Shown: in pieces, positions 39,688 to 46,320 of the stretch
Layout of the letters: every line of letters starts with the position of its first letter
Numbering within the stretch: the stretch's first letter is position 1
From: Nitrospira sp.
GTDB taxonomy: Bacteria > Nitrospirota > Nitrospiria > Nitrospirales > Nitrospiraceae
Direction of reading: 5' to 3'
Assembly (NCBI GenBank): GCA_019636945.1
Contig: JAHBWO010000015.1
Span: 1 to 46,672 of the forward strand
DNA: 46,672 nucleotides
Notes under the pieces: model-generated
Databases searched by the model: none
Told to the model about the DNA's origin: nothing
What the model saw: the letters and a program-made list of their open reading frames with translations, nothing else
Position numbers and translations under genes: made by a program

Positions 39688-40242
39688 ATGAGTGAACAAG
39701 CGCAGACCACACCGCAGCAGACAATGACCTGGAGACGGAAGCAGAGCGGCTCCGATCTTCACCCGTCACCCGTCATCCCTCACCCCTCACGCGGTCCTCT
39801 TTATGATGATCGCGGCTTTACCTTCATCGAAATCATGGTCGTCGTGGCCATTTTAGCCATTCTCGCGGCACTGGTCGTCCCTCGCATCATGGGGCGGACC
39901 GACGATGCGAAGCGCACAGCGGCCAAAGTACAGATCCGCAATCTTGAAGGGGCGCTCCAGCTCTATAAACTGGATAACGGCATCTACCCCACCACGGAAC
40001 AGGGCCTGAAGGCGTTGGTTGAGAGACCGTCTGTTGGCGTTGTGCCCAAGAAATGGAAGATCGGCGGATACCTGCCCAAACTCCCTGAGGATCCATGGGG
40101 CAATCCCTACAAATATCTCAGCCCGGTCCAACGGGCGGATCAAAAACTCGACTACGAAGTGACCTCGCTCGGCACCGATGGGGAGGTTGGCGGTGAAGGC
40201 GTGAACGCCGACATCACCAATTGGAACCTGGACAAGGAATAA
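39688..40242 (+). CDS. gspG: Major pseudopilin GspG with an unusually long leader
   Basis: A 184-residue precursor of the main pseudopilus subunit. The prepilin peptidase site is DDRG43^FTFIEIMVVVAILAILAALVVP, with Glu at +5 of the mature protein. The globular part has the family motifs YPTTEQGLKALVERP and DPWGNPYKY and a Ca-site region near the end (SLGTDGEVGGEG). A leader of 43 residues compares with the usual 6-12. The extra part includes HPSPVIPHPSR, encoded by five phased 7-bp repeats (39759-39793). The ATG at 39688 is well supported, with AGGGAGG six bases upstream, and no start codon closer to the cleavage site has a Shine-Dalgarno, so the long leader is probably real. The gene begins 52 bp after gspF. 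Confidence 0.94.
   Translation: MSEQAQTTPQQTMTWRRKQSGSDLHPSPVIPHPSRGPLYDDRGFTFIEIMVVVAILAILAALVVPRIMGRTDDAKRTAAKVQIRNLEGALQLYKLDNGIYPTTEQGLKALVERPSVGVVPKKWKIGGYLPKLPEDPWGNPYKYLSPVQRADQKLDYEVTSLGTDGEVGGEGVNADITNWNLDKE
39759..39793 (+). repeat. Five phased heptads inside the gspG leader
   Basis: Five consecutive 7-bp units of the form TCACCCG/TCATCCC/TCACGCG lie within the coding sequence just upstream of the prepilin cleavage site. They are the same CT-rich type as the units of the array between gspG and gspH and translate to a proline/histidine-rich stretch. Confidence 0.75.
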
Positions 40243-40249
40243 GTAGTCA

Positions 40250-41071
40250 ATGGTCAACAGGGGATGGTCGATGGTCAAGGGTCAAGGGTTAATCGATTCG
40301 GACCTCTCACGTCCCCTGTCCCCTCGTCCCTCGCCACTCGCCACTGCCCCCTTCCCCCATGCTCCATTCTCCATTTTCCATTCTCCATTCCCCCTCACCC
40401 GTCACGTTTCACGTTTCACGCTTCACGCTTCACGCTTCAGGTCTCACCCTTCCCCCCTCACCCTTCACCCCTTACGCTCTTCCATGGGCTTCACGCTCCT
40501 GGAAATGCTGATTGCTTTGTTTCTGCTGGGTGGAGTCCTCGCCGTGATATTGCCTCGCATCAGCTTTGAAGAAGACCTGCGCTCGACCGGGAGGAAACTC
40601 GTCGGACTGCTTCGAACCTTCCAGGGACAGGCAGCCATCGATCAAACACCTCTCAGGCTCTACCTGGATATAGACCAAGGACTCTACTGGATGATGGTGA
40701 TTGAAGGGAAAGAGGAGCGCCTTCCCCTGGATCCCGCATGGAAATTACCGAGACCGCTTCCGGAATCTATCCGCCTGACCGAAGTCTCTATCGGACAGGA
40801 CAAACGCATGTCCGGACGAGTCGGAGTCACATTCTTCCCAAATGGACGGATCGAGCCGGTGACGATGTATCTCATGGACGACAAAAGTAATCTCTTGGGG
40901 GTGGCGGTCGATTCCTTGACCGGAGCCATTCGAGTCAGTGACGAACGCTTTGATCCGCCACCAAACCGCCTGATCCCTGACCGTGTGAAAGTCCTCTTAA
41001 AAGCCAGCGCCCAAGCAGGCGCCGGCGGAACGGCACGAGGAGGCCCTCCACCCCCCCGTGGGGTCCAATGA
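40250..41071 (+). CDS. gspH: Minor pseudopilin GspH
   Basis: The secure part is the mature pseudopilin from 40490: M-G^FTLLEMLIALFLLGGVLAVILPRISF, with Glu at +5. A beta-rich domain of about 190 residues follows (GRKLVGLLRTFQGQAAIDQTP, LRLYLDIDQGLYWM), and the end is Pro/Gly-rich (GGPPPPRGVQ). The start is uncertain. ATG 40250 opens the frame 7 bp after gspG but yields an 80-residue leader made almost wholly of translated heptad repeats. ATG 40484 leaves only Met-Gly before the cleavage site and has no Shine-Dalgarno. Prepilin leaders normally have 5-15 residues with a positive charge, and RSSMG fits only the long form. The stop overlaps gspI by 4 bp. GspH is part of the pseudopilus tip complex or shaft. 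Confidence 0.85.
   Translation: MVNRGWSMVKGQGLIDSDLSRPLSPRPSPLATAPFPHAPFSIFHSPFPLTRHVSRFTLHASRFRSHPSPLTLHPLRSSMGFTLLEMLIALFLLGGVLAVILPRISFEEDLRSTGRKLVGLLRTFQGQAAIDQTPLRLYLDIDQGLYWMMVIEGKEERLPLDPAWKLPRPLPESIRLTEVSIGQDKRMSGRVGVTFFPNGRIEPVTMYLMDDKSNLLGVAVDSLTGAIRVSDERFDPPPNRLIPDRVKVLLKASAQAGAGGTARGGPPPPRGVQ
40251..40474 (+). repeat. 224-bp array of 32 degenerate heptads in continuous phase
   Basis: From 40251 the sequence can be cut into 7-bp units without a single phase slip for 32 units. Unit types change along the array: TGGTCAA/GGGTCAA first, then CCCTCGT and CACTCGC, then four TCCATTC-like units, then CGTTTCA twice, CGCTTCA three times, and finally CCCTTCA-like units. Neighbouring units are nearly identical while distant ones differ, as expected from repeated local duplication. 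The array is free of stop codons in the gspH frame. Confidence 0.88.
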
Positions 41072-43094: not shown

Positions 43095-43192
43095 GTTTCG
43101 CAGTGTGAGTTTCGCGTTTCTAGTTTCGAGTTTTATGCTGTCGGAATACTTGAAACCTGACATGTGAAACATGAAACGAAAGTAGAAACATG
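43095..43192 (+). repeat. 14-heptad array between gspN and gspL, with inversion of the motif
   Basis: Fourteen 7-bp units run in phase from 18 bp after the gspN stop to the gspL start codon itself. The first six are GTTTCNN-like (GTTTCGC, GTTTCTA, GTTTCGA). The later ones are of the reverse-complement type (TGAAACC, TGAAACA, TGAAACG). The outer parts can pair (CAGGTTTC at 43092 with GAAACCTG at 43152). The array occupies the position of the gspL ribosome-binding site, and no standard Shine-Dalgarno is left. Confidence 0.8.
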
Positions 43193-45324: not shown

Positions 45325-46255
45325 TGACCGCGGGATCGCGTTACTACTCGCGCTTCTGGTCCTGACCCTGCTCACCGCCCTCATCCTCGAATTCGACGCG
45401 GAGGCCAGACGGGAATACCGGGCAGCCGCCACCTTTCGGGACGACTATAAGGCCACCATGCTGACGAGGGCCGCGGTTCAGGCCACCAAGGCCGTACTGC
45501 TGCAGGATCTCATGCGGGAAAAGATGACCGGCCAAAAATACGACAGTCCGACCGATATCTGGGCCATGCCGATCACTAAGTTTCCGATCGGCGACGGGTT
45601 CCTGACCGCAAAAATTCAGGACGAGACGGGGAAAGTGAACCTGAACGATCTCGCATCAAGCTCAGGCGGTGAGCTGGAGCAGAAAAAGAAGATCGCCCGG
45701 GTCAAGCGGCTCTTTGAGTTGCTCAGACTCAGCCCCAGCCTGGTTGATGCGCTCATTGATTGGGTGGACCAGGACGAAGCGCCTCAGCCGGCCGGCGCCG
45801 AGAGCCTTTACTATCAATCCTTGCGCCCCCCCTACCGCGCCGCCAACAGCCCCCTTCCGGGCTTAGGAGATCTGCGACTCATCAAGGGATTTACGCCGGA
45901 GATCATTGAACGGATCACACCCTACGTCACCGTCTTCCCCCTGGAGGGCAGTGCTGCCATGAATGTCAACACCGCCGATCCGATCGTGCTGCAAACCCTG
46001 GATCCGGCCGTCACCCAAACCGTGGCGATGGAGATCGTCCAGGGACGGCCCTTCAAGACCAAGGTGGAACTCGACCGGGTCAGTAGCTTTCAGGAAATCG
46101 GCAGAACCCTGCGGAACGACTATGACGTGAAATCGGATTATTTCTCGGCACGCCTGGCCATCACCGTCAATGAAACCACCAAGAGCTCGCTGGTCATTTT
46201 GAAACGAGATGCCAGTAAGGGGGATAGCACGGTGGAGTATCAGAAGGTGTTGTAG
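45311..46255 (+). CDS. gspK: Minor pseudopilin GspK
   Basis: A 314-residue precursor. Prepilin site RADDRG8^IALLLALLVLTLLTALILEF. It lacks Glu at +5, as is normal for GspK, which caps the pseudopilus tip. The large alpha domain includes KIQDETGKVNLNDL, RLFELLRLSPSLVDALIDWVDQDEAPQPAGAES and NVNTADPIVLQTL, the helix-hairpin-helix-like repeats of the family. The gene is last in the operon instead of preceding gspL. It overlaps gspM by 14 bp and ends three bases before a heptad array. Confidence 0.94.
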   Translation: MPRADDRGIALLLALLVLTLLTALILEFDAEARREYRAAATFRDDYKATMLTRAAVQATKAVLLQDLMREKMTGQKYDSPTDIWAMPITKFPIGDGFLTAKIQDETGKVNLNDLASSSGGELEQKKKIARVKRLFELLRLSPSLVDALIDWVDQDEAPQPAGAESLYYQSLRPPYRAANSPLPGLGDLRLIKGFTPEIIERITPYVTVFPLEGSAAMNVNTADPIVLQTLDPAVTQTVAMEIVQGRPFKTKVELDRVSSFQEIGRTLRNDYDVKSDYFSARLAITVNETTKSSLVILKRDASKGDSTVEYQKVL

Positions 46256-46257
46256 GA

Positions 46258-46320
46258 GTTTCGAGTTTAAAGTTTCAGGTTTCAAGTTCAACGTTTCACG
46301 TCGCAAGAAACTTGGAACCT
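46258..46320. repeat. Nine-heptad array between convergent gspK and the GHKL ATPase gene
   Basis: Nine in-phase 7-bp units fill the space between the two stop codons. They begin as GTTTCGA, GTTTCAG and GTTTCAC types and switch to GAAACTT and GGAACCT. AGGTTTCAAGTT (46277-46288) and AACTTGGAACCT (46309-46320) can form a 12-bp stem with one non-Watson-Crick position. The array may therefore act as a transcription terminator for both convergent genes. Confidence 0.78.

Follow-up and report, generated by a model that had tools for sequence, protein, structure and literature searches.

Heptanucleotide arrays raise a particular question when they turn up in an operon: do they fill a gap between genes, or can a unit whose length is not divisible by three belong to one of them? 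This question is posed by a stretch of degenerate 7-bp units at 40251-40474 of a 46,672-nucleotide segment of Nitrospira sp. DNA (contig JAHBWO010000015.1, positions 1 to 46,672 of the forward strand, assembly GCA_019636945.1), the whole of which is referred to below as the window. The units lie just upstream of the predicted site at which GspH, a minor pseudopilin of a type II secretion system (T2SS), would be cleaved, and their phase, reading frame, variation among relatives, and distribution in the genome are considered here.

Periodicity and composition of the array

The interval 40251-40474 has a lag-7 identity of 0.700, followed by 0.610 at lag 14 and 0.522 at lag 21, and neighbouring lags all fall at 0.24-0.35. 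In 10,000 dinucleotide shuffles of the interval, the lag-7 value has a mean of 0.299, a standard deviation of 0.030, and a maximum of 0.415 (z = 13.5), a clear excess that bears out the 7-bp periodicity first proposed in a sequence-only reading of this DNA. When the window was scanned for periods 4 to 24, segments appeared at 7 and its multiples only. The same reading had described an unbroken run of 32 units without phase slip. Of this, the strong periodicity stands, and neither a lag-6 nor a lag-8 slip is visible inside the long block at 40296-40475, but the lag-7 detector resolves two blocks (about 40244-40292 and 40296-40475) that are separated by a non-repetitive stretch, with local lag-7 identity dipping to 0.38 around 40286-40306. 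Several unit families do lie side by side, as had been stated: GGTCAAG, CTCGCCA, CCATTCT, TCACGTT/TCACGCT, and CCCTTCA. The 7-residue period predicted for any translated product also holds, in that the gspH frame reads ...SRFTLHASRFRSHPSPLTLHPLRSS... Within the sampled part of the genome (1.36 Mb), this is the longest heptad array.

Location within the type II secretion operon

The array had been placed between gspG and gspH; it lies instead inside a GspH open reading frame (ORF) that begins with the ATG at 40250. The features concerned are listed below.

39688..40242, + strand: gspG, encoding the major pseudopilin, with heptads in its leader too (Pfam T2SSG, E 5e-38; N_methyl, 2.1e-8 at residues 41-63)
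39753..39795, + strand: short heptad array (TCACCCG/TCACCCC) in the leader-coding region of gspG, detected as a lag-7 array
40234..40238, + strand: AAGGA, candidate ribosome-binding site of gspH within the last gspG codons, read from the sequence
40244..40292, + strand: left heptad block, GGTCA-type units (lag-7 scan)
40296..40475, + strand: right heptad block, pyrimidine-rich units of several families (lag-7 scan, maximum 0.88 over 42 positions)
40250..40489, + strand: leader-coding part of gspH, 80 codons including the Gly at -1, which holds the heptad array (frame open, conserved across 77 junctions)
40487..40504, + strand: predicted prepilin cleavage site G/FTLLE, the slash marking the cut (sub-threshold Pfam N_methyl and NCBIfam prepilin matches from residues 79-80 of the ORF)
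40490..41071, + strand: mature GspH coding region plus stop (NCBIfam TIGR01708 GspH; dN/dS 0.11)
46253..46307, + strand: further heptad array (GTTTCAA-type), just past the gspK stop (lag-7 scan)

The operon is recognizable as one for type II secretion from gspE, gspG, gspJ, gspM, and gspK, which match Pfam models, and from gspI, which carries a prepilin motif; the position of gspH between gspG and the prepilin-like gspI is backed by T2SS synteny. The TIGR01708 GspH match covers residues 79-208 (E 6.3e-8) and is sub-threshold, its 32.8 bits standing against a curated cut-off of 80, and the full gspH ORF likewise falls just below the cut-offs of both Pfam N_methyl and NCBIfam GFxxxE. The prepilin motif GFTLLEM starts at 40487, and the ORF fits a class III signal peptide (GFTLLEMLIALFLLGGVLAVILP), in which the hydrophilic leader is followed by Gly (-1), Phe (+1), Glu (+5), and a hydrophobic stretch. 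For the prepilin peptidase, one Peptidase_A24 gene over the cut-off is present in the genome. The closest named gspG records are from Nitrospira metagenome-assembled genomes, with 98-99% protein identity over the mature part. Another heptad array is found in the same operon at 43095-43133, upstream of a PilM-like gene.

Conservation of the reading frame across Nitrospira

Pyrimidine-rich heptads are poor in stops in any frame, so that the window alone, with 0, 1, and 0 stops in the three frames, leaves the frame test powerless, and the gspG-gspH junction was therefore compared genus-wide, with 80 named Nitrospira contigs set beside the window. Three loci in which the motif search took a later gene were discarded, as was one truncated locus, and 77 distinct junctions were kept, sampled at one genome per species with drafts among them; the G-F prepilin motif behind the leader, present in all 77 loci, was a requirement of the search itself. 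One gspG record titled Nitrosospira takes a tree position among Nitrospira.

Across the 77 junctions, the GspH frame contains 4 stops in 2,972 codons, whereas the other two frames contain 51 and 71. It is open throughout in 73/77 loci (40 and 34 in the other frames), and a start codon can be reached without a stop in 76 loci (37 and 39 in the others). Since the species are related, these stops are not independent events, which thinned sets correct in part: with 56, 46, and 36 divergent species, 3 stops remain in the GspH frame, against 35/51, 28/42, and 24/35 in the other two. The 34 heptad-rich loci alone give 2 stops in the GspH frame versus 16/24. On these counts, the array very probably encodes the prepilin leader of GspH and is not intergenic DNA, with its frame kept genus-wide.

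The start of gspH was taken, by convention, as the farthest ATG. In the window, the candidate AAGGA lies 11 nt upstream of ATG 40250, and the only other in-frame ATGs, at 40271 and 40484, are both without a Shine-Dalgarno (SD)-like word (40484 as judged by eye). Among the junctions, an SD-like word at least 4 letters long precedes 40/62 first in-frame ATGs versus 9/26 later in-frame ATGs; some loci have no clear ribosome-binding site, or GTG/TTG starts only. In one species (L064), the ATGGTCA unit is doubled at the start codon, and it is the second copy that supplies the in-frame start.

Variation of the leader

Before the Gly, the leader measures 10-128 residues across the junctions, and the distance from the gspG stop to the cleavage site ranges from 34 to 388 nt, with 40 distinct gap lengths in codons. 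A frequent tail in relatives is LRSSA, directly followed by GFT. Several species have short leaders with no heptad array, and the array is thus not needed; the shortest leaders (MVTGHRSLERA before the Gly) are themselves spelled as GGTCA heptads, which may have been the seed of the arrays. Constraint on the leader sequence is slight, dN/dS in 14 close pairs being 0.81 for the leader and 0.11 for mature gspH. While the sequence-only reading had counted an identical fixed array with codon-level conservation in relatives as evidence against itself, what is seen is an array that varies, with only the frame conserved. Even sister species may differ entirely in this region: L047 matches the window at 89% of nucleotides in gspG and 88% in mature gspH, yet its leader is almost without an alignable match. 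Parsimony on the 77-species tree gives about 19 changes of the heptad-rich state, of which 13 or more fall on well-supported branches.

Indels that align cleanly measure 21 bp and 42 bp between the window and L049/L050, and 21 bp between L074 and L076; in other pairs, the length differences do not divide by 7 and stem from changes of mixed kinds. Close species often have exactly the same length (181/181 in L049/L050; 202/202 in L074/L080). In L049 and L050, neighbouring units carry an equal substitution, CACGTGT twice versus CACGTTT twice, and such paired substitutions, together with the 21- and 42-bp changes, would fit ordinary slippage. The active mechanism of expansion and drift that had been read from the divergent units is weakly supported: lengths are often equal in close pairs, and orthologous intergenic arrays at three junctions showed no clear length change by whole units in the closest genomes. 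A hypermutable length was considered and rejected, such change being unseen between the closest species in several leader pairs, and not clearly seen in the compared intergenic arrays.

Heptads and other repeats in the genome, genus, and phylum

Genome-wide counts rest on a 1.36-Mb sample of this genome, in which 23 period-7 arrays were found, each other period from 4 to 13 giving at most 1 at the same threshold. Nearly all of these arrays are in gaps or at gene ends. In the phylum, TCANNNN repeated five times is present in 212/395 Nitrospirota genomes in a patchy manner, and a period-8 control pattern occurs in 2/59 Nitrospira genomes. A 400-kb sample of another genome (G012) yielded no period-7 array strong enough to pass this threshold, so that abundance varies by lineage. 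Some distant Nitrospirota, including G376 and G184, contain dozens of TCANNNN or ACTNNNN heptad matches, and others none.

Pooled lag-7 identity is 0.445 in GspH leaders, 0.239 in mature gspH, and 0.268 in the gspH-gspI gap; in the second half of gspG leaders it is 0.407, versus 0.25-0.30 at lags 5, 6, 8, and 9. A general heptad periodicity of all Nitrospira gaps was set aside, as its excess is very slight (0.262 versus about 0.255). Because ordinary gaps barely exceed the background, the leader is a special place; the GspH and GspG values, compared with the low values of gaps, make the two long pseudopilin leaders hot spots, and the GspH leader is an exceptional one.

The unit families seem to be lineage dialects. 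Furthermore, a reverse-complement partner is found in the own flank of 11/27 heptad arrays, versus 9.7% in the flanks of other arrays (genome sample L127-L206), an excess which indicates that many arrays are arms of imperfect hairpins. The unit type differs by clade at two intergenic junctions (L148 5500-6500 with orthologues L207-L211, and L147 11500-12700 with L215-L219), with TTTCACG-type heptads in the clade of the window (G000, G006, G011) and CTCAGCA-type heptads in another clade (G001, G012, G016); reverse-complement copies upstream change in step, at least at the L148 junction.

Heptads are not the only repeats in these leaders. In L090, L099, L119, and L121, the GspH leader includes a palindromic element of the dispersed kind (core CTCAACGTACCCCAGAGGGTACGCCTC), which is read through in frame; the core occurs in 48/59 Nitrospira genomes, with up to 23 copies per genome. 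GCGAGAC-type repeats are found in the leaders of L048, L096, L106, and L110. The sharing of the leader by these two kinds of element supports the view that Nitrospira pseudopilin leaders are refuges, which heptads, GCGAGAC-type inverted repeats, and the roughly 130 bp palindromic element colonise, where they are read in frame and soon replaced, a view that we put forward tentatively, as possible and not yet as probable. If true, non-coding repeats would find in a removable leader a safe place to turn coding.

Alternative explanations

The array might be an untranslated spacer, that is, an intergenic heptanucleotide repeat, with GspH starting near the cleavage site at ATG 40484. Such a start codon is present, directly preceding the Gly, and similar arrays in the genome are mostly in gaps or at gene ends; however, stops are avoided genus-wide in the GspH frame alone, no sequence resembling a ribosome-binding site stands before 40484, and most relatives have no equivalent of this ATG or other near in-frame start (counting starts at least 4 codons upstream, the shortest usable leader has 20 or more residues in 44/76), all of which makes the spacer unlikely. 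It is also quite unlikely that the array serves dosage control at the RNA level, its inverted heptad arms forming a hairpin that would reduce the translation of GspH compared with that of GspG. Strongly folding leaders do exist in some species (z of -6.3 in L112, -6.0 in L110, and -5.0 in L093), and the excess of own-flank partners (11/27 versus 9.7%) points in the same direction, but the stretch in the window shows no stronger folding than its shuffles (z -0.4), 64 loci have a mean of -0.9 with only 23% below -2, and short array-free leaders occur in several species. As a general function, an RNA or DNA hairpin was rejected on the value for the window stretch.

Since 3 does not divide 7 and the array sits close to the N terminus, a position at which such repeats are active in other bacteria (discussed in PMC4692102), the gain or loss of a single heptad could shift the frame and toggle GspH, making the array a contingency locus for phase variation. 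This is very unlikely, as stops in the GspH frame past the first few codons occur in only 4/77 junctions, the units are degenerate, which reduces slippage, and several close species pairs have equal lengths. Finally, an artefact in the assembly of this metagenome-assembled genome is scarcely credible: the genome, a 267-contig draft, is listed as 88% complete and with 6 in the contamination column, yet independent assemblies of relatives have alignable arrays (L049, L050), and the complete chromosome of Nitrospira moscoviensis has its own heptad-rich version (L086).

Proposed origin and significance of the repeat-built leader

The reading preferred here, which we consider likely from the sequence comparisons, is that the heptads are part of gspH and are translated as a long hydrophilic leader removed at G/F, the frame being selected and the sequence almost free. 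Translation from ATG 40250 would give the minor pseudopilin GspH a hydrophilic N-terminal leader of unusual length, which the prepilin peptidase would then cut off at G/F. Within the leader-coding region, 7-bp repeats, and in other species other dispersed repeats, would build up via slippage, point mutation, and insertion, with selection keeping mainly the start codon, the frame, and the cleavage site. Because the leader peptide would be discarded, its sequence would be almost unconstrained, allowing repeats to accumulate, and because the frame would be selected, heptads would be gained and lost in frame-keeping steps, the clean cases being 3 or 6 units (21 or 42 bp). Slippage is suggested by the equal changes in neighbouring units and by these steps.

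With leaders of 10 to 128 residues in about 77 species, in which frame and cleavage site are kept while drift of the sequence is almost unhindered, the genus provides a natural experiment on the requirements of a prepilin leader. It also illustrates how a repeat unit not divisible by three can live inside a gene, and it calls for caution, as gene callers and repeat finders may misassign such leaders as intergenic. A literature search for heptamers in Nitrospira found nothing, and for degenerate heptads to reside in frame, across a whole genus, in a prepilin leader that is predicted to be cleaved would be new, as far as the searched literature shows.

Comparison with known repeats and prepilin leaders

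Heptanucleotide repeats are known from cyanobacteria (Calothrix, Nostoc), Xanthomonas (PMC4692102), and Beggiatoaceae (PMC4679880), among them the GGGAATC / GGGGA(C/T)T repeats of Xanthomonas and Nostoc (PMC4692102). For the favoured unit of 7, polymerase footprint effects have been suggested by others, and the enrichment of simple repeats near N termini is cited in the Xanthomonas study (both in PMC4692102). The likeness to the short tandemly repeated repetitive (STRR) sequences of cyanobacteria, drawn in the sequence-only reading, is supported, as the heptads are likewise tandem and dispersed in this genome. Like STRR and Xanthomonas repeats, they are 7-bp tandem units that are dispersed in the genome, are often found by gene ends, and vary between close species (PMC4692102). 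In contrast, the Nitrospira array is highly degenerate, has several families, and forms an in-frame prepilin leader, whereas STRR and Xanthomonas sets are mainly non-coding and have one or few fixed units. STRR-like repeats are characterized by residence in non-coding DNA, and the gspH array is within the gspH frame. A search for CCCCA[AG]T, which we take to be the type of the cyanobacterial STRR unit, returned 3 matches with 3 mismatches versus 1.8 expected, a number not beyond chance.

In Beggiatoaceae, TAACTGA direct repeats are located directly upstream of coding sequences and, inside genes, at protein ends (PMC4679880). The Nitrospira heptads resemble them in lying directly upstream of coding sequence or at gene ends (PMC4679880). 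However, TAACTGA is one invariant unit that brings a stop into each of the three forward frames, and thus it allows no read-through in that orientation, whereas the Nitrospira units are degenerate and readable; a TAACTGA dimer, looked for in the window, is absent.

With respect to the leader itself, type 4 pilins and pseudopilins have class III signal peptides, in which a hydrophilic leader of variable length remains in the cytoplasm and is cut off on that side of the membrane by prepilin peptidase (PMC10191384). GspH of Nitrospira is similar in its variable hydrophilic leader, in the residues Gly -1, Phe +1, and Glu +5, and in the hydrophobic stretch behind them (PMC10191384). The difference is in size and origin: the predicted GspH leader has 80 residues in the window, including the Gly, and up to 129 in the genus, and is built of DNA repeats, whereas the leaders depicted for pilins of S. 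sanguinis have 8-18 residues (PMC6497953).
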